Source: Paenibacillus sp. FSL K6-1330 (GTDB lineage: Bacteria > Bacillota > Bacilli > Paenibacillales > Paenibacillaceae). From it: DNA of 64,000 nt. The notes beneath the pieces were generated by a model. The model was not told the DNA's origin and searched no databases. It was given only the letters and a program-made list of their open reading frames with translations. Location of the stretch: positions 2,927,501 to 2,991,500 of the forward strand of contig NZ_CP150269.1 in assembly GCF_037976825.1 (NCBI RefSeq), in the 5' to 3' direction. This document shows positions 42,872 to 53,711 of the stretch, one piece after another (the first letter of the stretch is position 1; every line of letters starts with the position of its first letter). The position numbers were made by a program, and so were the translations under genes.

Positions 42872-42901
42872 TTTACAAGTGAATGTAACTTGTTCTATAA
42901 T
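42872..42901 (+). promoter_or_regulatory. Promoter of the Tad-like locus
   Basis: TTTACA (42872-42877), 18-base spacer, TATAAT (42896-42901). It lies 124 bases before the kinase gene and just before the leader hairpin. Confidence 0.7.
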
Positions 42902-42931
42902 GATTCCAAAATTAACCAACGACAACATTAG

Positions 42932-42990
42932 GGAAAGCATCCCGCTATTCATCACAATTCAGTGATGAGGCGGAGTGCTTTCCTTTTTTT
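42932..42990 (+). terminator. Leader hairpin with T-run (terminator or attenuator)
   Basis: GGAAAGCA (42932-42939) pairs with TGCTTTCC (42976-42983); inside, CCGC/GCGG-type and CATCAC/GTGATG pairs extend the stem. TTTTTTT follows directly. It lies between a good promoter and the kinase gene, so it would end most transcripts unless antiterminated. It may also terminate read-through from the repair operon. Confidence 0.75.
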
Positions 42991-43025
42991 TGTTGTGCTT
43001 GTAAGTCAGAGGAGAGGGCGTTGAC

Positions 43026-44492
43026 ATGAATCAGCCTTGCAGATTGGTACATGGGGAAGTGTTGGGCGAGCGTTACGTGATTGACCGCGTGATTGGTGAA
43101 GGGGGCATGAGCTGTGTATATCTAGCCGAGGATCAGAAACTGCCCGGGAAGAAATGGGCAGTGAAAGAGAGCTTGTCTGAACCCGGTATGCAGCGCGCCG
43201 TTCAGGATGAGGCACAGCTTCTGATTAAACTCAGTCACCCGCGGCTGCCCCGTATTGTCGATTTTTTTCATGTTCAGGATACCGGCTACACCTATTTAGT
43301 TATGGATTATATTCAGGGCATGACATTGGAGAAGTACTTCCGAGGATATCGGGGAAATGTGAATCCGGACTTCATTATGGAACTGATCGAGCAATTGCTG
43401 GATGTTCTGGAGTATCTCCATAATCACGAACCTCAGGTTATATTCCGAGATTTAAAGCCATCGAACATTATGCTGACCGATCAGCTGGAGGTTAGACTCA
43501 TCGATTTTGGAATCGCGAGAAGTTATAAACAGGAGAGTGGCGAGGATACGGTCAAGCTAGGCACGGTTGGATTTGCAGCGCCGGAGCAATACGGAGGAAG
43601 GCAAAGCGATGCGAGATCGGACCTGTATGGACTTGGTGCGCTTCTGCTTTATCTCTCAACCGGAGGCAAATTCAGTGAATGGATAACGGGCGTGGAGCGA
43701 CATATTCGTGGCGATTTACCAAGAGAGCTTGTGCCCGTTATCCGAAAGCTGCTGCAGTATGCTCCGGAGCACCGATATCAATCCACAGTAGAGGTTCGTT
43801 CAGCACTAAACAGGCAGCAGTCGATTACTGCGAATATTGCGGGTGTTCAGTCCAACACGCTAGCCGGGACGCTTGTGACGGCCGTATTGGGGACATCGTC
43901 CGGTGTAGGAACAACGCATAGCTGTATCGCATTTGGTCATTACTTGGCATCAAGGTACGGGAAGGTAGCGATCGTGGAAATGAGCGCAAAATCCACCGCC
44001 TTTACCCGGATTCAGGAAATTGCCGAGGGCGGGAAGCTGGGATCTATCCGAAAATTCGAAATCAACGGGATTCATTTCTGGCGGCAAACGGCCAGAACGG
44101 AAGTTATTTCGCTGCTCGGAGGCAGCTACGATGCAGTTGTGTTGGATTTGGGAGCATACCGGGACAGCGAACGGCTTGAGGAGTTCCTTCGGGCTGATCT
44201 GCCTATCGTTATCGGATCAGGAGCGGAGTGGCGACAGCATGATGTGGTGACGCTGGCCCGGATGCTGTTAAGACACCCACAGGCGGCAAGGATCTATGCA
44301 CTGCCTCTTGCAGGAGAAGAAACAATTCAAGAAATGAGAAGAACGCTAGGAACGAATAAAGTTTATTCTTTACCCCTGCAATTGGATCCGTTTGAAGTAC
44401 CGGACAGCAGCAGGGAGGCATTTGCACAGTTATTTCAGGACTACTTGCCGCCGGCAGAAAGGAAGCGAAGATTCAGGTTTCTAAAGAATTAA
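43026..44492 (+). CDS. Ser/Thr protein kinase fused to a ParA/TadZ-like domain
   Basis: A 488-residue protein. The N-terminal kinase (about 17-265) has the glycine loop IGEGGMSCVY, the ATP lysine K47 (WAVKE), the catalytic loop FRDLKPSN (D142, N147; the usual HRD histidine is phenylalanine), DFG at 160-162 and APEQY. The C-terminal half (about 283-488) opens with VLGTSSGVGTTHS (around 287-299), a P-loop-like strand as in ParA/MinD/TadZ proteins but without the P-loop lysine, followed by VAIVEMS and AVVLDLG. There is no membrane helix. I infer a phosphorylation-linked controller for the secretion-like machine encoded downstream. First gene of a ten-gene run; 28 bases to the next. Confidence 0.88.
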   Translation: MNQPCRLVHGEVLGERYVIDRVIGEGGMSCVYLAEDQKLPGKKWAVKESLSEPGMQRAVQDEAQLLIKLSHPRLPRIVDFFHVQDTGYTYLVMDYIQGMTLEKYFRGYRGNVNPDFIMELIEQLLDVLEYLHNHEPQVIFRDLKPSNIMLTDQLEVRLIDFGIARSYKQESGEDTVKLGTVGFAAPEQYGGRQSDARSDLYGLGALLLYLSTGGKFSEWITGVERHIRGDLPRELVPVIRKLLQYAPEHRYQSTVEVRSALNRQQSITANIAGVQSNTLAGTLVTAVLGTSSGVGTTHSCIAFGHYLASRYGKVAIVEMSAKSTAFTRIQEIAEGGKLGSIRKFEINGIHFWRQTARTEVISLLGGSYDAVVLDLGAYRDSERLEEFLRADLPIVIGSGAEWRQHDVVTLARMLLRHPQAARIYALPLAGEETIQEMRRTLGTNKVYSLPLQLDPFEVPDSSREAFAQLFQDYLPPAERKRRFRFLKN

Positions 44493-44520
44493 CCGCATTT
44501 GAACTGAAGGAGATGAAGCA

Positions 44521-45630
44521 ATGCCGATTATCAGGAGGCGCAGCCGCAAACTGATATTTGCTGGACTTGCCGGCGCAGCCGTAACGGGTGCCGTATGTGC
44601 TGGTACAATGATGTATTATGTGCACGGTTATAAAGAGCAGCAGAATGTAGAGCGTACTAAATACGAGCAGCGAATCACGGAGCTTGAAGAGACACAGCTG
44701 CAGCAGCTCAATTCAATGAAGGTTGCATGGGTTCCGTTAAAAGATATTCCGCCTGGTCATTTCATAGATGCAAAGGATATTAAGGAAGTGCGTTTGCCTG
44801 ATGACGGTTCTTCCGGCAATCTGTTCTCGGTCAAGGAAGAGATCGCAGGGAAGGGGGCTAAGATCGAGCTGCTGCAGGGAACACCGATTACCCGCTCGAT
44901 GCTCTTTGAAGAAGAGCCGACACCGTCTGATCTCCGTCATCGGGAGATGAAGTCCGTATATCTGCCAAGCAATTTACGCCAAGGGGATGTGATCGATGTA
45001 AGGGTTCAATTTCCTACCGGACAGGATTATATCATTTTATCCAAAAAGAAGATCGACAAGCTTCAAAATCCGGCGTTCTGGACGACGTTAAGCGAACAGG
45101 AGATTTTATTGCTTTCCAGCGCTTTGGTGGATGCTTATCTGCATGATGCAACGCTTTATGCACTCACCTATGTAGAGCCGGAGCTGCAAGATAGAGCGAT
45201 TCCTAACTATCCTCCGAACGCTGAAGTAACGAAGCTGATTACAAGCAACCCGAATATTGTGAAGAAAGCTGAGAAGTTTTTCGAGGTTACGCTGCGAAAC
45301 ACGCTGGAAGAGGATTTAAAGAAGCTTCAACCGAATCAGCAGGCTCAGGTATCTGACATGCATCATAACTCGATCTTTGCTAGCGGTGCAAGGAGTCCGG
45401 ACTACTGGAGTCCTGCGTCCAACATAAGCCCCCAAGCAAAATCTTCAACGGATACGGAATGGAATAACGCTGACATCCGTTCTGACGATGAGACAAATAC
45501 AGGGACTCCGCTTCGTGAAGAGCGGGATTCAGAAGCAGAGCAGATTTTGGGATCATCCGGCTCGCCAGAATCCCAGAATAGCAGTGATAGGGAATTACAA
45601 GAAGCGGAGTTGATATTCTCAAGTCCTTAG
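44521..45630 (+). CDS. SAF-domain protein, CpaB/RcpC-like
   Basis: A 369-residue protein with one N-terminal membrane helix (about 11-33), a coiled-coil stretch (EQQNVERTKYEQRITELEETQLQQL) and a SAF domain (about 67-135: VAWVPLKDIPPGHFIDAKDIKEV... ITRSMLF), then VRQ-type barrel (LPSNLRQGDVIDVRV). The tail from about 270 is Ser/Asn/Glu-rich and likely disordered. This is the layout of CpaB/RcpC, the periplasmic or wall-side component of Tad pilus systems. RBS GAAGGAGA. Confidence 0.82.
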   Translation: MPIIRRRSRKLIFAGLAGAAVTGAVCAGTMMYYVHGYKEQQNVERTKYEQRITELEETQLQQLNSMKVAWVPLKDIPPGHFIDAKDIKEVRLPDDGSSGNLFSVKEEIAGKGAKIELLQGTPITRSMLFEEEPTPSDLRHREMKSVYLPSNLRQGDVIDVRVQFPTGQDYIILSKKKIDKLQNPAFWTTLSEQEILLLSSALVDAYLHDATLYALTYVEPELQDRAIPNYPPNAEVTKLITSNPNIVKKAEKFFEVTLRNTLEEDLKKLQPNQQAQVSDMHHNSIFASGARSPDYWSPASNISPQAKSSTDTEWNNADIRSDDETNTGTPLREERDSEAEQILGSSGSPESQNSSDRELQEAELIFSSP

Positions 45631-45683
45631 TAAGACAAGGCGAACCCCGAAGAACAGATGGTATGTGAAGGAGTGTAATCAAA

Positions 45684-46391
45684 GTGAAGACGTGGATATT
45701 TACAGGCATCTGTGATAAGAGCGACATGCTTCTCTTTATGTGCAAAATATTAGCCAATGGAGACAATAGAGTACTGCTCGTGGATGGTGCGATTGATGCG
45801 AAGTACAAACATTGCATAGGCGTGATACATCCACAGCTGCCGGTTATGGAGTTTGCCGGATTCGACGTGGCAACCGGATTTGAGAACTATACGTCGCTGA
45901 TGGACTATTTGGAGGAAACAGACGAGAAGAAATATGACTATATCGTCATGGACGTGGAGAAGACGGAATTCCTGGACAAGATGCAGTGGGATACAGCAGA
46001 TGCCCATGTTTGGGTTAGCGGGTTTGAGGTAACAGGACTGCGTAAGAGTACGGCCTTGCTTGATGAACTGAGAGCTTCAAGAACAGATGCTCCGCTACCG
46101 CCGTTCCACCGGGTATATGTTCAGGTCATTGAAGATTTGATGGATGAAACCTACATTGAAGGCTATCTGGAAGACAGCCGGATTCAGTGGCTGGGTCCTC
46201 CCGTGAAAATGCCATGGGATGAATTGTTTTTCGCCTTGAAAATAAAAAATGAACATGCAGGAAGATTGGGCATCAAGCCATTGTCCAGACAGTATAAACG
46301 ATCGCTTACCGAACTTCTCCGCCTTTTAACGGAAATGGAGCAGCGGCATATTCGCCGGGCGCTTCGGCAAGCAGGAAGGAGGCATGCATGA
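45684..46391 (+). CDS. Degenerate ParA/TadZ-like protein
   Basis: A 235-residue soluble protein I can place only by fold resemblance. It starts with a beta-strand/loop (WIFTGICDKSDMLLFMCKIL) where a P-loop should be, but without G-K-T. It continues with VLLVDGA and YDYIVMDVEKTEF, as in the Walker B strands of ParA-type proteins. The C-terminus is helical and very basic (RHIRRALRQAGRRH). It is most likely an inactive or nucleotide-free relative of TadZ. Start GTG 45684 has AAGGAG; it overlaps the next gene by four bases. Confidence 0.7.
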   Translation: MKTWIFTGICDKSDMLLFMCKILANGDNRVLLVDGAIDAKYKHCIGVIHPQLPVMEFAGFDVATGFENYTSLMDYLEETDEKKYDYIVMDVEKTEFLDKMQWDTADAHVWVSGFEVTGLRKSTALLDELRASRTDAPLPPFHRVYVQVIEDLMDETYIEGYLEDSRIQWLGPPVKMPWDELFFALKIKNEHAGRLGIKPLSRQYKRSLTELLRLLTEMEQRHIRRALRQAGRRHA

Positions 46392-47257
46392 GTCTGATTG
46401 CTGTATGGAGTCCCTTGAAGAGCGGCAGTGGCAGTACGATGTTGGCTTCGAGCTTACCTATCGTATTGGCGCTTGAATATCAGGTTAAAGTGCTCCTCGC
46501 CCATGGTGGACATGCAGGGGAACGAGTGGAGCAAGCCTTTACCTATAAACAGGAAGCATTAGATTATATGACGGCATTTCAAGATACCGGAATGGATGCC
46601 TTGGAACGGCTTCGTGCAAGCGGGCGTCTGAGCCCAGAGAATGTACGCAATTATACCTTGCCGCTCCTGTCTGATCGGCTCGATCTTTTATGTGGACCGA
46701 AACCGATGTCTGCCGATGCTATACATACAACAGGAAATGCGGAGGACAGGAAACAGGCAGAACTTATGACCAGAGTTATGGAGTCCTCCAAGCGAAGTTA
46801 CGACATCAGGGTAGCCGATGCAGGAAATGGAGTTCCTGGTGCGGCAGATCGGGCGATACTTCAAGCGGCTGACTTAATCGTAGTTGGTTTGAATCAGAAT
46901 TTACATATCCTGGAGAGTGCGATTGAACAGGAGAGGTTGCCTCCAGAAGTGAGTGACAAGGCATGCTTGTATATCGTCGGCAAATACGACCGGGATAGCC
47001 ATTGTACACTGCAAAATATCAAGCGCCGCTTTGGCATCAAGACGACGGTACTCGGTGTTCCGTATTGTTCCGGAATGACGGATGCATGGAATATGCGCTC
47101 AGTTATGCCCTACATGCAGCGAAGCCGGGGAGGCGCTGACCTGAAACGCATGAGCTCACTGTATAATGCGGTTCGTAATCTGGCGGATGCCGTGGCTGAA
47201 CAGCTTGGTCTTCCTGCTGGCGGTTCGAAACTGGGAGGCCTGCATGCTCTTGGGTAA
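46388..47257 (+). CDS. ParA/TadZ (CpaE)-like protein with altered P-loop
   Basis: A 289-residue protein opening with AVWSPLKSGSGSTMLASSL. In the deviant Walker A of ParA/MinD this should read K-G-G-x-G-K-S/T; here the first lysine (K11) stays but the P-loop lysine is serine (S16). YDIRVADAGNGVPGAADRAIL and ADLIVVGLNQN match the following strands. TadZ/CpaE proteins place Tad machines in the cell; ATP hydrolysis is doubtful here. Its 3' end overlaps the ATPase gene by 14 bases. Confidence 0.78.
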   Translation: MSLIAVWSPLKSGSGSTMLASSLPIVLALEYQVKVLLAHGGHAGERVEQAFTYKQEALDYMTAFQDTGMDALERLRASGRLSPENVRNYTLPLLSDRLDLLCGPKPMSADAIHTTGNAEDRKQAELMTRVMESSKRSYDIRVADAGNGVPGAADRAILQAADLIVVGLNQNLHILESAIEQERLPPEVSDKACLYIVGKYDRDSHCTLQNIKRRFGIKTTVLGVPYCSGMTDAWNMRSVMPYMQRSRGGADLKRMSSLYNAVRNLADAVAEQLGLPAGGSKLGGLHALG

Positions 47258-49148
47258 TTCCTTGAATACGATATGGATCATCGTCATGATTTTGTTTGTA
47301 TTGCTGTTTGTATATCTGCGTTATTTGGATACCCGAAAACCGGTGGCTACGATTTCGCGGGGATCGGACCCCTATTCTCTTGAAGCTATGACTGCGTTTG
47401 TTAAAGAAAGCCTTCATCAGCTGACGCACAGTCAGTTGTCTGATTTAGGGTTGCACGAAGAGGAGTATCGCCGCAGGCTGAACAAGCGAAGCGAATTGAG
47501 AAGTGCCCTCAAGGGCTGCGTTTCCGGAGATGTGCTGGATAAGGCGTATGTAAAGGATTTTTTAAAGCAGCTCCTGGTAAGAGACCTAGGTTTGAACGAG
47601 TCCAACATTCATGCAGCCATTCCGTTCGAAAACCTGACCGAGTTAACAGCCCAGGATCAATTCGAGATCATATTATACCTGTATAAGCAGAGGCACGGAG
47701 AGGATGCTCTATCCGTACTTCTTGAAACGTATGATCTAGCAGAGCCGCGCGTGATTCCAGGTTATGGAGAGGGCAGCGTCTATGCGGTTACCGCGGAAGA
47801 CATCGCATATATCTATGAGTCAGAGCAGCGTCCGCTCTTGTTTCCGGAGAAGCTGGACATCGTCGTTCAGCGCATATATCAGCAGTACAAAGGCTTTTCC
47901 GTTGTGGATGAAATCAGGGATCAACGGATTGACGGGATCAGTGGCGGCGTTAGTGGCATTCCTGTTAATCGTGACAGCGGGCAGGATATTTTTCACTCCG
48001 AGGATGAGTTTTTGGGGCTAAGTTTTTCGCATCCCGAATCGCCAGCAACAGGCTGTGAGAGTGTGTGGATTTTTTATCGAGGGGTGTCGCTGCATCTAGC
48101 TTTTTTATCATTTGGTTCGATGCTGGAACTTAAGAGGGTATGTCAAAACATATACAAATACAATCATCCTGGGCAGCTTTCAGAAGCTAGCGGTTATAAA
48201 GTGAATGAAATGAAGGATGGCTCCAGGGTCGTTGTGGTCCGGCCCCCATTTGCCGAGTCCTGGGCGTTCTTTGTCCGCAAGTTTGATCTGCCCAAGGCTT
48301 CGCTGGATCAGTTAATTACGGGAAACGGCTCCGAATTGGTGATCGGTTTGTTGAGGTATTTAATGAAAGGCAGCCGGATTACGGCAATCACCGGTGCTCA
48401 GGGATCCGGAAAAACAACGCTGCTCATGGCGATGGTGGGTCATATTTATGCGTCTTATACTCTTCGGGTTCAGGAGATGGCCTTTGAGCTGCATTTAAGG
48501 AAAATCTACAGCCGCAGGAATATTCTCAGCTTCAGGGAAACCGAGCATATTAGTGGGCAGGCAGGTCTGGATCTGCAGAAGAAAACGGACGGTACCGTTA
48601 ATATTCTTGGTGAGGTTGCCAGTGACGAGGTTGCGTCATGGATGATACAGATGTCTCAAGTGGCAAGTTTGTTTACCGTGTTTACCCATCATGCCAAGAC
48701 ATTCAAAGACCTTGTACAATCCTTGCGCAACTCCTTGCTCAAGAGCGGCGTTTTCAGGCAAGAGCATATTGCTGAGCAGCAGGTGGTCAGCGTGATCAAC
48801 TTTGATATTCATCTTAGAAGAGACGCTGACGGTAACCGTTACATAGAGCGTATTACAGAGTGCATCCCGGTTGAGAAGGGATCCCTGCCACCATTCGAGG
48901 GAACTTCGGAAAAACGCTGGAAGAGCAGCATGGAGGAGTATTTTCAGCTAAGTGCAGAACATATGCGGAGATTGAACGAATTAAGTTATTTCGTATCCCG
49001 TAATGTAATTGAATACCGGGACGGTGCCTATATCGCTGCCGCCAAGTTATCCGAAAGCAGTGTTCGTGAAATGTCCGAGCAGATGCATCCGGAAGATGCC
49101 GAAGAATTCAGAGTGTTTCTGGCTTCGGGTTGGGGGGAACAAAAGTGA
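47244..49148 (+). CDS. Membrane-anchored CpaF/TadA-type secretion ATPase
   Basis: A 634-residue protein. An unusual N-terminal membrane helix (about 8-26) is followed by a helical region, then a type II/IV secretion ATPase core: GAQGSGKTT at 384-392, Walker B-like VNILGEVASDEVASWMIQ (near 455) and THHAKT, equivalent to the usual GEVRG.EA...L and THAN. Conserved arginines and acidic boxes are only partly kept. It should power assembly of pilin-like subunits. Start ATG 47244 has GGGAGG seven bases before; an earlier in-frame start would lie deep inside the preceding gene. Confidence 0.82.
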   Translation: MLLGNSLNTIWIIVMILFVLLFVYLRYLDTRKPVATISRGSDPYSLEAMTAFVKESLHQLTHSQLSDLGLHEEEYRRRLNKRSELRSALKGCVSGDVLDKAYVKDFLKQLLVRDLGLNESNIHAAIPFENLTELTAQDQFEIILYLYKQRHGEDALSVLLETYDLAEPRVIPGYGEGSVYAVTAEDIAYIYESEQRPLLFPEKLDIVVQRIYQQYKGFSVVDEIRDQRIDGISGGVSGIPVNRDSGQDIFHSEDEFLGLSFSHPESPATGCESVWIFYRGVSLHLAFLSFGSMLELKRVCQNIYKYNHPGQLSEASGYKVNEMKDGSRVVVVRPPFAESWAFFVRKFDLPKASLDQLITGNGSELVIGLLRYLMKGSRITAITGAQGSGKTTLLMAMVGHIYASYTLRVQEMAFELHLRKIYSRRNILSFRETEHISGQAGLDLQKKTDGTVNILGEVASDEVASWMIQMSQVASLFTVFTHHAKTFKDLVQSLRNSLLKSGVFRQEHIAEQQVVSVINFDIHLRRDADGNRYIERITECIPVEKGSLPPFEGTSEKRWKSSMEEYFQLSAEHMRRLNELSYFVSRNVIEYRDGAYIAAAKLSESSVREMSEQMHPEDAEEFRVFLASGWGEQK

Positions 49149-51217
49149 CCTCTAAAGATGTGTTAATACTGATTTTAATCATATCTCTGGCACTGTTTTC
49201 CATCACATTCGGTATCATGTCGTGGATGAACAGGAGACGAGGGGATCGTGAGGTAACTCCCGTCAAGGTGGATGCGGGCGAGGTGAGATCCTTGCGGGGG
49301 ATGTACCGGCAATGGTTTCAATTGGCCTATATGTATGGGATGAAGCTCCCGCTAATCAAAGCCTATCTTAAACGGATCAGACAGCGGATCGCGATCATGC
49401 ATCCTTACGACGAAATATCACTCCGGTTTGAAACAGTGAGGCTAGCCTTGGCGATAACCGGCACGATCGGGTTAACCGCCATGCTTCTTATATGGAGTCA
49501 TCCGGACTTGGGGTTTATTATCATTGTTATTCTCGTAGCAACGGTTATTAACAATATGCTCATTGAGATGTTCATTAACCGACTGGAACGAAAAATACTT
49601 ATCCAATCGGTTGAATTGTTCTCCTCCGTCCGTCATCACTATCAGCAGCATGGAATGGTAGAGGAAGCTTTGTACGAGGGGGCGGAGACTTCTGGACATG
49701 AAATCTCTATGCATGCCCATCGGATCTACAATGCTTTGGTATCCCACGATCCTGATGACGAGTTGGAGAGGTATTATGAGGTAGCGCCGAACCGATATCT
49801 TAAAGCGTTTGCGGGTATTTCACATCTGGTCATGGAGTTTGGCGATCATGCGAGAAAACAAGGCTCAATCTATCTGCATGGACTAAGCGGATTGACCAAG
49901 GAGATCCAATTGGAAATATTGCGCAGAGACAAGCTGGATTATTTAATGAAGGGCTTGAATGTGATTGCGTTGGCGCCGGTCTTTTTCACCAAACCGATTG
50001 AACGCTGGGCCAGAAGCAGTTTTCCATCGATGGATGTGTTTTATATGAGCAAGCTTGGGTATATGACCAAGATATCCATTTATGTCATTATTCTCATTTC
50101 TTATATCTTGCTTCAGAAGCTCCAGCAAAATCGAGAAACGGATTACCGCGCTCAGGTTCAGAAAATGACCTTGGAAGAAAGGATGTACCGAATTCCTGTT
50201 ATGCGCTGGCTTGTGAAGGTGATGGCTCCGACACCCGGTACGGTGAAATATGACAGGCAGATACGGTTACTAAAGGAAAGCAACGCGAGAATCAAGTTCG
50301 AATGGCTCTATATCAGAAGGGTGACGTTTTTCCTCCTGGCTTTCTTCCTGTCGTTGTCGCTGGCAGCAGGCCTGCATGTGCAGGCAAAACATCATCTGCT
50401 GTATGTCCCCGTTTCCCTGAACCATTCCCTGTTCGGCCAGATGAATGAGATCGAGCGTCGGCAGGCAGAAGAAACGGTTGAGCGTGATCGGCTGCTAATG
50501 GAACAATTGCATATGTCGCCGGATGTAACTGATGATCAGATCAAACAGATGGTCAGTGAGACAGACCCTATTGGATTGACCAAAGAACAAGTTGAAATCA
50601 CAACCGATCGAATTATGACTAAACTGCAGCGCTATGATAGCGAGTATTTGAAATGGTGGGAGTTGCTCCTATCCTTTCTGGCAGGTGTGGCTGCATATGC
50701 GGCGCCATTATGGCTGCTGCATTTTCACCGGAAAGTTCGCAATATGGAAATGCGGCATGAAATTTATCAATTTCAGACGGTCATCTCTATATTGCGTGGA
50801 ATGGAGCGAATCTCGGTTGAGGGCATATTAGAATGGCTTAATCGGTTTGCCGTTATTTTTAAGATTCCCATTCAAAAAAGCTTGCTTCATTACGAACATG
50901 GCGCACAGTTGGCTTTGCTGGAGTTGAAGGAAGACGTCTGGTTTCCTGAATTTCAGCGGCTCGTGGACAAGCTGCTGCTTGCGGTGGATAAAGTACCGAT
51001 CAAGGATGTTTTTGATGATCTCGATGGAGAAATGATATTCAGTTTCGAGCAGCGCAAGCAGGAATATGAAGCGATGATCGACACGAAGGCCGCATGGGGG
51101 CGAATGATCGGTTTTACTCCGATGTATGCGCTGATCTTTATGTATCTTGTCATTCCGCTAATCGGCATGAGTTTCTCCCAGATGGAAACGTACTATGAGC
51201 AAATTCAACGATTATAA
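49145..51217 (+). CDS. TadB/TadC-like inner-membrane platform protein, apparently both halves in one chain
   Basis: A 690-residue membrane protein. One helix near 7-25, a pair near 95-150 and two near 270-340 form the first half; helices near 390-410, 520-545 and 655-675 form the second, with soluble helical blocks between them. Canonical Tad systems have two separate proteins (TadB, TadC) of about 300 residues each, so this length suggests a fusion. Start GTG 49145 shares GTGA with the previous stop. The next gene is 73 bases further. Confidence 0.72.
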   Translation: MTSKDVLILILIISLALFSITFGIMSWMNRRRGDREVTPVKVDAGEVRSLRGMYRQWFQLAYMYGMKLPLIKAYLKRIRQRIAIMHPYDEISLRFETVRLALAITGTIGLTAMLLIWSHPDLGFIIIVILVATVINNMLIEMFINRLERKILIQSVELFSSVRHHYQQHGMVEEALYEGAETSGHEISMHAHRIYNALVSHDPDDELERYYEVAPNRYLKAFAGISHLVMEFGDHARKQGSIYLHGLSGLTKEIQLEILRRDKLDYLMKGLNVIALAPVFFTKPIERWARSSFPSMDVFYMSKLGYMTKISIYVIILISYILLQKLQQNRETDYRAQVQKMTLEERMYRIPVMRWLVKVMAPTPGTVKYDRQIRLLKESNARIKFEWLYIRRVTFFLLAFFLSLSLAAGLHVQAKHHLLYVPVSLNHSLFGQMNEIERRQAEETVERDRLLMEQLHMSPDVTDDQIKQMVSETDPIGLTKEQVEITTDRIMTKLQRYDSEYLKWWELLLSFLAGVAAYAAPLWLLHFHRKVRNMEMRHEIYQFQTVISILRGMERISVEGILEWLNRFAVIFKIPIQKSLLHYEHGAQLALLELKEDVWFPEFQRLVDKLLLAVDKVPIKDVFDDLDGEMIFSFEQRKQEYEAMIDTKAAWGRMIGFTPMYALIFMYLVIPLIGMSFSQMETYYEQIQRL

Positions 51218-51290
51218 CGACACGAGGATGGGTCAACTGGAATTAGATCAGTAGATTTAAAAAATAAATAAAAGAATGAGGGAGATTTCA

Positions 51291-51749
51291 ATGAATAATG
51301 CATCATCCGCTTTAAAGGTTGCAGCAGGTATATTTCTGACCATTGCTCTGATTACCATTGTTGTTATTTTGTTTATCTCGGCGCAGGAGGCAACCAAAAC
51401 TGCTCAGAACAACTTTTCAGATATTCAGACAGAGCTGTCCCAGGCAGCATTTACCGTATATGACGGAACAACCATCAGCGGTTCTCAGGTGACAAACGCA
51501 CTGCGCAAATACAAGGACAAGGATCAATTTGGCGTTTTCATAGCAACAGGCAAAAATAAAGCAGGGCAATGGTACGGCAATGTGTTGGAGAAGGACGGTT
51601 CGATTCCCAATCCGGATTCAAGACAGGGAAATATCGAACACGTTATGGATGAGAAAAGCCCGGAGTACGTCAATCCAAGCGGGAAATTCAAGGCCACCAT
51701 CGTTAAGGATGATTCCAACGTGATCAGAGGCATCAAGTTTGATCAATAG
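51291..51749 (+). CDS. Pilin-like protein with N-terminal hydrophobic helix
   Basis: A 152-residue protein: short polar start MNNASSALK, then a hydrophobic helix (VAAGIFLTIALITIVVILFISA, about 10-31), then a soluble domain with a GFVFIA-type strand (FGVFIATGKNK). The layout resembles type IV or Flp pilins and pseudopilins. The classical G/E cleavage site before the helix is not present, so processing by a prepilin peptidase is doubtful. RBS GAGGGAGA. It probably forms the filament or part of the pseudopilus. Confidence 0.65.
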   Translation: MNNASSALKVAAGIFLTIALITIVVILFISAQEATKTAQNNFSDIQTELSQAAFTVYDGTTISGSQVTNALRKYKDKDQFGVFIATGKNKAGQWYGNVLEKDGSIPNPDSRQGNIEHVMDEKSPEYVNPSGKFKATIVKDDSNVIRGIKFDQ

Positions 51750-51773
51750 TTATGAATGGAAAGGTGAATTGCC

Positions 51774-52169
51774 TTGCGTGAACAAACGATAAGCGCGCTG
51801 GAAATGGCAGCAGGGGTGGCATTATTTCTTGGCGCAGCCCTGTATGCATTGCATATTCAGACGATGGTTGATGGCGGTATATCAGCCGCAGGGAGAATGA
51901 CTCAGGAGCAGCATGCGGGTGTGATCACCGTAGAGATGACGAACGAGAACAGGAAGCTCATTTATAAGGGGAGCGAAGTATTATTCACGCTGCGAGAGGT
52001 TCAAGCAGGCGGCTTCAATATGTATGTAGATGGAGCACTGTTCCGATCAGGACGTAATCCGGAGGAGCTGGATCTCTCGATCATTGATATGAACGCCCGT
52101 TATGCTACGGAATACGTTCGGAGAATCAATGGAGATGTGGAAAGCATCCAGTTTGTTAAAGTGAGGTAA
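51774..52169 (+). CDS. Small pilin-like membrane protein
   Basis: A 131-residue protein with a short N-terminus (MREQTISALEMA), a hydrophobic helix (about 12-28) and a soluble part of about 95 residues. It follows the previous gene by 24 bases; start TTG 51774 has AAAGGTGA. No known family is recognised; position and layout suggest a minor pseudopilin. Confidence 0.6.
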   Translation: MREQTISALEMAAGVALFLGAALYALHIQTMVDGGISAAGRMTQEQHAGVITVEMTNENRKLIYKGSEVLFTLREVQAGGFNMYVDGALFRSGRNPEELDLSIIDMNARYATEYVRRINGDVESIQFVKVR

Positions 52170-52174
52170 CAGCA

Positions 52175-52729
52175 ATGTCAAACTCGGTTTCGAAATGGTT
52201 TGCTGCCTTTCTGGCACTTCTTCTGCTGTACTTGGTTCCCGCAGGTGAGATGGCTAGAAGACAGGATGATCTGTCACGACTTGTTGTTTATCAATCCGTC
52301 ACCAAATTCGTGGACAGTGTTCGTACGAAGGGGTATATTACTCCGATCATGTACAATGACTTCCTGCAAGAGCTGGCAGCCACCGGGAACATTTACAATG
52401 TGGAGATGGAGCACCACCACAAGAAGTACCACCCGGAATATGGGGATCCTTCAGATCCTGGTACATTCCTGAATCGTTATTCAGTCGTATATGATGCTTA
52501 CTATCAGGAAGATGTTATGGGATATTTGTTCCCGGAGTCGAATGTTGATAAACACGATGATAGACGCCGATACCGCTTAACGGCCGGAGATCACTTCCAG
52601 GTAAGTGTCAGTTCTCTGAATCGAACACCCGGACTGATCATGTTCGATGCGCTGACCGGATCAAATTCAGGTGGAAAAGCAGCAATCGCATTCCCATACG
52701 GAGGCTTGGTTCTGAATGAAGATTACTGA
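52175..52729 (+). CDS. Pseudopilin-like protein of unknown family
   Basis: A 184-residue protein with N-terminal hydrophobic helix (about 8-25) and a soluble domain rich in His, Tyr and Asp (EMEHHHKKYHPEYGDPSD). It starts five bases after the preceding stop and its own stop overlaps the next gene by 14 bases. Function not known. Confidence 0.6.
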   Translation: MSNSVSKWFAAFLALLLLYLVPAGEMARRQDDLSRLVVYQSVTKFVDSVRTKGYITPIMYNDFLQELAATGNIYNVEMEHHHKKYHPEYGDPSDPGTFLNRYSVVYDAYYQEDVMGYLFPESNVDKHDDRRRYRLTAGDHFQVSVSSLNRTPGLIMFDALTGSNSGGKAAIAFPYGGLVLNEDY

Positions 52730-53711
52730 TCTTGCCATCGTATTCACCGCCGTGTTTTTCCCCATGTTTATTATTCTGGGCATGCGTGCCGAGAGTCTGG
52801 AGGATGTCCGGTACGTAGAAATGAAATACTCGGCAGCTCTGCGCACAGCCGTCCAAGACGGTGGGATGATGCTGAACGATAATGAGACCCAGGACAAAGA
52901 GTCGGCATATGATTCTTTAAAGTTTATGCGTGCGGACAAAGAGCGAGCGTTGGAGTCCTTTTCTCAGACGCTGTACATCAATATGGGAATCGCGGATGAT
53001 CCGGCTGCGCAGACTGCCCTGTGGTGGTATATTCCTGCTATCGTTGTGCTGGATTATGACGGGTATTATATGTATGTTTCGCAAACCTTCACCGACGCGT
53101 ATGGGGAGGAGCTCATGGAGCACAGATGGACACCCAAAATCCCTTATGCCTGGAATGATGGCAGGGGCAACAGCATCCGGTTTACATTGGATTCCTTCGT
53201 TCAGGTGTATGAATCAGGTGGAGGCTCCTCCATCTGGCACTCTGGATTTCGGGAGGATCTGACTGGCAGGACGGGTGTAGCTTTGCTGGAAGATAAAGAT
53301 AGGTTTGAACAAGTTAGGCGGATCACGATTGTAAATACCGTTCAAGATCATCTGGCTTATTACATACAGCGGCACAACCAAGTGGCGCTCCGAAACGGAG
53401 TATCCTATACGTTCGCGCTTCCGTTGATATCCCAGGAAGAGTGGGTGAATACGATTGATGATATCGGTATGATGGCATTTATTCAAGGTATTCCCCTGGG
53501 CGATCAGTATTATAATAACTATGCCCTTGGAGGCGGCAGACTCGTTAAAGCTCCGGTTTATTTCGGAGGTGTGGATAGCAGGGGACTCAAATATTATTAT
53601 CGCGATGTCTGCCAATACAACTATCGCGTGGAAGAAGTGTTTCCGAGTGCCAAGGAGGCAGCGGCAGCAGGTTATCAGGAGAAAAGCTGTTCTAATCCCG
53701 GTGTTCTATAA
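52716..53711 (+). CDS. Membrane-anchored protein of unknown function, last gene of the locus
   Basis: A 331-residue protein with a hydrophobic N-terminal helix (about 5-23), helical region and a large mixed domain rich in aromatic residues (YDGYYMYVSQTFTDAYGEE; WIPKIPYAW-like). No domain is recognised. By position it could be a large pilin-like or adhesin subunit or an assembly factor. It overlaps the preceding gene by 14 bases; no strong terminator was found after it. Confidence 0.6.
   Translation: MKITDLAIVFTAVFFPMFIILGMRAESLEDVRYVEMKYSAALRTAVQDGGMMLNDNETQDKESAYDSLKFMRADKERALESFSQTLYINMGIADDPAAQTALWWYIPAIVVLDYDGYYMYVSQTFTDAYGEELMEHRWTPKIPYAWNDGRGNSIRFTLDSFVQVYESGGGSSIWHSGFREDLTGRTGVALLEDKDRFEQVRRITIVNTVQDHLAYYIQRHNQVALRNGVSYTFALPLISQEEWVNTIDDIGMMAFIQGIPLGDQYYNNYALGGGRLVKAPVYFGGVDSRGLKYYYRDVCQYNYRVEEVFPSAKEAAAAGYQEKSCSNPGVL

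Follow-up and report, generated by a model that had tools for sequence, protein, structure and literature searches.

The question raised by the locus described here is what kind of machine is encoded by ten closely spaced genes in the chromosome of the soil bacterium Paenibacillus sp. FSL K6-1330, genes that resemble Tad pilus and secretion components to very different degrees. The locus lies in a stretch of 64,000 nucleotides (positions 2,927,501-2,991,500 of the single 7.43 Mb contig NZ_CP150269.1), termed the window, to which all gene positions refer. In agreement with a preliminary description made from the DNA letters, which had proposed a promoter followed by ten tightly packed genes on one strand, the list of open reading frames (ORFs) contains ten ORFs on the plus strand between 43026 and 53711, the whole locus including the promoter extending from 42872 to 53711. 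Four junctions between the ten genes, designated g01 to g10, are overlaps and the largest gap amounts to 58 bases. There is good support for regarding the locus as a divergent Tad-like machine. Its first gene encodes a kinase fused to a TadZ-like domain and is preceded by a leader RNA element; searches of open-access full texts listed no paper on the locus, on this fusion or on the leader element. The host appears to be close to Paenibacillus lautus, the closest named motor (g05) proteins stemming from this species in one search (90%); a second search returned, among the matches listed, P. lautus NBRC 15380 (96%) and Paenibacillus sp. EZ-K15 (98%).

Tad-like components of the locus

That the locus is a strongly changed Gram-positive relative of Tad, as had been suggested, is supported by matches of the motor, of a TadZ-like protein and of a CpaB/SAF protein. 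The motor, g05 (47244-49148, mechanical ORF start at 47166), matches TIGR03819 at an E value of 7.1e-12 with 45.2 bits (curated cut-off 373.15) and the CpaF structure 8rkd of the PDB at 2.9e-11, and is, by sequence, a CpaF homologue. Across 24 g05 sequences there is little or no variation in Walker A, the Walker B GE and an HH motif, and the motor motifs are kept down to 36% identity. A hydrophobic, presumably membrane-spanning helix is found at the N-terminus of all 24 g05-type proteins (best 19-residue mean hydropathy 2.26-3.53) and in none of six ordinary TadA proteins (0.12-0.87). At E <= 0.001 the host genome (G000, 7.43 Mb) contains two T2SSE-type places, the canonical CpaF gene and g05, so that no ATPase of the ComGA/GspE type was seen. 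One motor gene of a relative (G016, C1:438673-440553) carries an internal TGA.

The protein g04 (46388-47257) aligns with the canonical TadZ profile (E 6.9e-10, probability 96.6) and is, judged from this alignment, a homologue of TadZ/CpaE, probably a pseudo-ATPase: the P-loop lysine is present in none of 26 aligned sequences. As a control, a simple P-loop pattern matched four of seven ordinary TadZ proteins and not the other three; of these, the protein of the host's own canonical locus keeps the lysine by eye. The preceding gene product, g03 (45684-46391), may be a degenerate ParA/TadZ-like protein according to its position, length and general sequence appearance; family searches gave no significant match. 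The N-terminal hydrophobic helix and SAF domain of g02 (44521-45630; SAF 2.5e-6, 28.4 bits, cut-off 21; TIGR03177 pilus_cpaB 2.2e-6, under cut-off) identify it, on sequence grounds, as the CpaB/RcpC-type protein of the set.

With the canonical Tad/Flp locus of the host (L018, C1:6.107-6.118 Mb) the ten-gene locus shares a CpaF motor, a TadZ-like protein, a presumed envelope platform and presumed single-helix surface subunits. The canonical locus differs in having separate TadB- and TadC-like proteins with T2SSF matches, its own prepilin peptidase, a DUF6382-FHA protein, a motor that lacks the N-terminal hydrophobic helix and a TadZ that retains the P-loop lysine (by eye).

The preliminary description had made its reading depend on the genes being kept together in related genomes, and this they are. 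Among 60 genomes, the host included, 30 high-scoring motor places (at least 372 bits; next score 59) occur in 26 genomes, and of the 29 resulting loci outside the window, 25 contain the full set g02 to g10 in unchanged order. The same holds for 74 of 80 loci that were named individually, these being the best 80 of 557 confirmed. The two sets share at least nine loci, and some of the misses are contig ends. Grouping of the genes therefore exceeds what chance would produce. The kinase-bearing g01 is present in 59 of the 80 named loci.

The folds of motor and platform had been singled out as a second point on which the reading would stand or fall. While the motor matches CpaF, the 695-residue g06 (49130-51217) showed no match in a search for the T2SSF domain (PF00482), and no match was found for its model by Foldseek at E <= 0.001. 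The protein is a single chain with two similar-looking helical halves, the first of which is TadB-like with a weak profile match (226 columns, E 1.6e-5). Helix lengths run parallel in the two halves by eye in the AlphaFold2 model (mean predicted local distance difference test, pLDDT, 80.8). Despite this, internal duplication was not shown by profile comparison: the halves did not match each other, whereas the TadB-TadC control reached 1.8e-14. Profiles of g06 and g07 gave nothing convincing against PDB sequences.

The next gene, g07 (51276-51749), which occurs in two or three copies in some relatives, encodes a candidate pilin. Its model (pLDDT 76.2) consists of a 57-residue helix (residues 4-60, with residues 42-54 below 50) followed by a small alpha/beta domain with a sheet, and a long N-terminal helix followed by an alpha/beta domain is the order of elements in type IV pilins. 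Structure comparison returned no pilin among the matches listed, which excludes nothing. The remaining products g08 (51774-52169, g07-like by eye), g09 (52175-52729) and g10 (52716-53711, 331 residues) are likewise single-helix proteins, for which family searches gave no significant match. In two plasmid loci (L195, L199) the g07 homologue is publicly named 'ABC transporter permease', apparently a misannotation, and in another genome (G020) a reverse-transcriptase-like ORF, of group II intron type by eye, is located between g09 and g10 (L039, 1683-3542).

A simple pattern for the prepilin cleavage site found the canonical Flp control, none of 30 g07-type proteins and none of g07 to g10 of the window. 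The sole place in the host genome matching prepilin peptidase (PF01478) belongs to the canonical Tad locus and not to the ten-gene locus. In one complete relative (G006; 100% complete, one contig) the divergent locus is present, and neither a PF01478 match at E <= 0.001 nor an ordinary CpaF match was obtained. Since two defining Tad features, the prepilin site and the peptidase, were looked for and not found at the locus and the platform fold has weak profile support in one half of g06, we file it as a Tad-like variant.

The kinase gene and its leader

The first gene, g01 (43026-44492), encodes a Hanks-type Ser/Thr kinase domain (residues ~17-218; Pfam Pkinase 2.5e-37) joined to a TadZ/MinD-like domain (residues ~279-481). 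The catalytic residues K47, E62, D142, N147 and D160, as expected for the Hanks type, are invariant in 21 of 21 aligned sequences, the HRD arginine being replaced in one homologue (L184), and the kinase of the window is intact as judged from its sequence. At the P-loop lysine position of the second domain the same 21 proteins carry threonine (17 cases) or valine, serine, cysteine and alanine (one each), and lysine in no case. This C-terminal domain aligns over ~200 columns with the TadZ-like proteins of loci linked to type VII secretion and conjugation (hhalign E 2.7e-31).

The kinase does head the operon in the window, in line with the preliminary description, but a homologue is encoded in all 100 Paenibacillus genomes searched, and the idea that the kinase belongs to the ten-gene operon only was rejected. 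Scores above 500 bits were obtained in 35 of these genomes; the downstream Tad operon was seen in 15 of them and, to go by the score, probably follows in the other 20. In the remaining 65 genomes scores range from 274 to 432 bits, with the kinase domain alone matched in four. All eight of the low-scoring cases that were read have the order methyltransferase, kinase, ABC-F, and no Tad gene in between. Some low-scoring genomes harbour a divergent Tad locus elsewhere (G018, G035, G036).

These figures invite the explanation that only the kinase is under selection and the Tad genes behind it are decaying passengers, a view to which the kinase gene split into two ORFs in one genome (G019, L024) and the internal TGA in the G016 motor gene would also lend themselves. 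Conservation of the motor motifs down to 36% identity and the complete gene order in most loci of both overlapping sets (25 of 29; 74 of 80) argue against decay, and we regard this explanation as highly improbable.

Relatives of the kinase are not confined to divergent loci. Among 23 genomes of other families, 17 have a related kinase (38-49% identity in the kinase domain) at a distance of 2.9-5.1 kb from a gene of the ordinary CpaF type; in the other six it lies 2.7-4.6 kb from a divergent motor (three genomes), 19 kb from one (one genome) or was not found at E 1e-45 (two genomes). Six of the 17 were read and all look like kinase-led Tad loci; in three of them (L189, L191, L193) the kinase is preceded by homologues of the ABC and methyltransferase genes of the window, and L189 and L193 also share the nfo homologue. 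A DUF6382-FHA protein is encoded in the ordinary Tad loci L018 and L189 as well as before the kinase in L044. The chromosomal site may thus descend from an ancestral kinase-Tad locus, Paenibacillus now holding there either the divergent machine or the kinase alone. The same methyltransferase gene precedes the kinase in all 59 kinase-bearing named loci, immediately in 57 and separated by one gene in two; a mobile element in the window was rejected on the same count.

Upstream of g01 a promoter-like site (TTTACA-18-TATAAT, 42872-42901) matches 11 of 12 consensus positions. It is the best of 13 such sites found, and shuffled sequence yields a mean of 16.4, so that the assignment rests on position and on conservation at the equivalent place in related loci, the latter judged by eye. 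Between this site and the start codon of the kinase gene lies a feature absent from the preliminary description, a hairpin followed by a U-tract (42931-42991, plus strand; 5' arm GGGAAAGCATCCC; minimum free energy -32.8 kcal/mol) that resembles an intrinsic terminator. Its location suggests transcription attenuation. The sequence GGGAAAGnATCCC follows the promoter in 54 of the 59 kinase-bearing named loci; three of the others carry variants by eye (L092, L094, L127) and two have an extra gene in front (L111, L129). One long hairpin of -30 to -45 kcal/mol ending in a T run was predicted for 53 leader sequences, the window included, two further sequences not fitting the 3' pattern. Its inner stem is highly variable, and at leader position 8 the pairing among 56 scored sequences is C-G in 51, T-A in three and T-G in two. 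A small hairpin, GGGA-AAGYA-UCCC, could be an alternative form of the leader, which its near invariance neither proves nor excludes.

A strict leader pattern found 43 copies in the 100 Paenibacillus genomes and none in a reversed control. All but one of the copies precede the kinase gene in the same orientation, and for 40 of these the distance to the aligned start is 32-73 bases. The leader-bearing genomes comprise 24 of the 35 high g01 scorers and 18 of the 65 lower scorers. The pattern was not found in six kinase-Tad loci of other families, nor in 15 of a further 17 divergent loci. The leader is possibly a new regulatory RNA: in Rfam no family reached its cut-off for it, and a known RNA family was rejected, the two microRNA families returned being far below. 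A regulon was rejected as well, the host genome containing one exact copy and 42 of the 43 genus copies belonging to the kinase gene.

Spread and neighbourhoods of the Tad-like genes

Among 398 genomes sampled across the phylum, 12 match the motor; five of them, the host included, reach at least 856 bits and all belong to one family, the other seven (at most 88 bits) looking like ordinary CpaF. A restriction to Paenibacillales, which this sample had suggested, was dropped after searches of a plasmid collection. This collection yields 24 records at E 1e-40 or better (Paenibacillus 10, Lysinibacillus 7, Butyrivibrio 2, and five genera with one record each), and in 23 of the 24 the alignment spans 80% or more of the query. 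The machine extends beyond the Paenibacillaceae, the divergent motor also occurring in Tumebacillus (among the named loci) and on plasmids of Lysinibacillus, Alkalihalophilus and others. All five plasmid copies that were read encode a TadZ-like domain protein (in two pieces in L198) and g02 to g10 in order. The many 'hypothetical protein' names in their public annotation bear out the expectation that automatic tools leave most parts unnamed.

The plasmid copies also bear on the possibility that the locus is an exporter, i.e., that a pseudopilus drives type II-like secretion of surface proteins encoded after g10. In four of the five (L195-L198) g10 is followed, in one case after a further gene, by a copper amine oxidase/stalk-domain or S-layer homology protein and then by a DUF5704 protein, both candidate surface partners of the machine. 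Stalk-domain or S-layer homology proteins were noted by eye after g10 in L029, L033 and L034 also, and one S-layer-homology-like protein near g10 in the close relative L028. Export would further be consistent with g07 to g10 if these could form only a short pseudopilus. In the window, however, g10 is followed by an ABC-F gene, and in 48 of the 59 kinase-bearing named loci an ABC-F homologue is among the first two genes behind g10; export appears unlikely.

Other relatives stand among type VII secretion genes. In three genomes (G018, G036, G054) the order is EssC, YukD, TadZ-like, WXG100-like, CpaB and g03 to g10, with EssC above the family cut-off in all three; in G054 YukD has Pfam support and WXG100 is just under cut-off. 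In G018 and G036 EssC and YukD are separated by an additional ~235-residue protein without Pfam match, at the position of the EspG-like chaperone of T7SSh. In a fourth genome (G039) g10 is followed by an FHA-bearing EssC, two WXG100 proteins, a kinase and a PP2C-type phosphatase. Conjugation genes form a further neighbourhood: contig C108 of G021 carries on one strand genes for MobL relaxase, VirD4, a T4SS-pilin-like protein, TrbL, a PrgI-like and a VirB4-like protein (T4SS-pilin and PrgI matches being under cut-off), followed by an M23 peptidase, TadZ-like, CpaB and g03 to g10. The ten proteins of the window include no EssC/TshC, WXG100 or YukD, the nearest EssC above cut-off being 1.8 Mb away, and no VirB4, VirD4 or relaxase, which are present in relatives such as L043 and L051.

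Proximity of Tad to type VII or conjugation genes has already been published for other loci; the reports concerned are considered here on the basis of excerpts. T7SSg and T7SSh loci are described beside Tad genes with the functional link left open, and for the T7SSh component TshM the excerpt gives no confident prediction, potential homology to a kinase and a C-terminal helix (Garrett, Higginson, Palmer 2024, PMC11217815). In L042, L045 and L046 relatives of all ten parts, g01 lacking the kinase domain, are interleaved with EssC-, YukD- and WXG100-like genes much as in T7SSh, whereas the window copy stands alone and carries the kinase domain; the position of the EspG-like TshG is filled only in L045 and L046, without Pfam support. 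By position, C-terminal helix and the excerpted description, the TadZ-like proteins of these three loci may well be TshM, and the C-terminal domain common to g01 and the TadZ-like proteins would then explain TshM's apparent kinase homology. At L170 (G001) and L172 (G049) an ordinary Tad set adjoins EssC-, YukD- and WXG100-like genes by eye, as in the T7SSg of the excerpt, and L176 (G054:C14) looks by eye like a second type VII-like locus with CpaB-like and ParA-like genes behind it.

Further systems were compared by description. The Sulfobacillus conjugative plasmids pL15 and pY0017 and an integrated element combine MinD-like, CpaF-like and TadB/TadC-like proteins with relaxase, TraG and VirB4, the excerpt mentioning no kinase (PMC6803676). 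Flp-pili plasmids of Cutibacterium acnes carry Tad beside conjugation genes (PMC5696575); the organism is Gram-positive like the host but actinobacterial, and appendages are reported there from electron microscopy. The proteobacterial Kil system of Myxococcus xanthus is a Tad-like apparatus that kills at cell contact (PMC8460266). Within Paenibacillus, two Flp/Tad-like loci without a pilin are reported, in the excerpt, for another strain (PMC5072692) and tadB and tadE for P. polymyxa (PMC8370563).

Could the Tad part of the window itself be a type VII component, working in trans with the T7SSc-like locus of the host (4.77 Mb, EssC at 4.777 Mb), much as it seems to cooperate elsewhere with adjoining type VII genes? 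Such a role would fit the interleaving in G018, G036 and G054, the adjacency in G039 and, in G014, a further copy that is ~15 kb away from EssC. In addition, an EssC with at least 66% identity (best piece) to that of the host occurs in 30 of the 100 Paenibacillus genomes, all of them among the 35 high g01 scorers, yet the Fisher p of 1.1e-20 ignores kinship, and if the 30 form one clade, shared ancestry can explain the nesting. No type VII gene is found among the ten proteins, 11 of the 26 divergent-motor genomes among the 60 lack an EssC above cut-off, four other genomes have EssC without the motor, and the T7SSc assignment was made by eye, the protein in the kinase position there having no Pfam match. 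Taken together, we consider this role quite unlikely.

Proposed mechanism and implications

For the ten-gene locus as a divergent Tad-like (type IVc) envelope or contact machine that works as set out in the following, we estimate a moderate probability, somewhat above even. The membrane-tethered motor would push g07, with g08 to g10 as minor subunits, out of the single-chain platform and across the cell wall, and the product would be a short pseudopilus or a thin pilus that makes cell contact. The surface subunits would retain an uncleaved N-terminus, in which case a prepilin peptidase would not be needed. The kinase-TadZ fusion, together with g03 and g04, which lack the usual nucleotide-binding lysine, would position the machine and activate it through phosphorylation of threonines; the leader hairpin would end most transcripts early until some signal lets the operon through. 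The mechanism, the nature of the product and the part played by phosphorylation are all inferred.

Several observations weigh against the proposal. The second half of g06 gives no convincing profile match, and the pilin identity of g07 depends on how helix and alpha/beta domain follow each other in a model of middling quality. No more than 42 of the 100 Paenibacillus genomes contain the strict leader pattern, and the kinase, being present without following Tad genes in all eight low-scoring cases read, may serve another task. Neighbourhood, moreover, is not function, and the case is built on sequences and predicted models.

What makes the contact machine proposed here interesting is that one module recurs in several contact-dependent settings and that kinase and leader form a conserved unit. 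Little is understood, to our knowledge, of the way in which Gram-positive cells are brought into contact for the delivery of toxins or the transfer of DNA. If one recognisable machine recurs in both settings, its kinase and leader RNA would provide handles for testing how such contact is made. The locus further suggests a concrete identity for a so far unassigned T7SSh component, TshM as a TadZ-like protein, and might represent a case of a type IV-like filament built from uncleaved subunits. The recurrence beside genes for toxin secretion and DNA transfer hints at a portable cell-contact device. As a tentative and rather doubtful extension, one conserved nine-gene Tad-like module without prepilin peptidase could constitute a portable Gram-positive apparatus, plugged into type VII secretion, conjugation, large plasmids and a chromosomal locus controlled by phosphorylation and RNA, that would in each of these settings hold two cells together through two walls.

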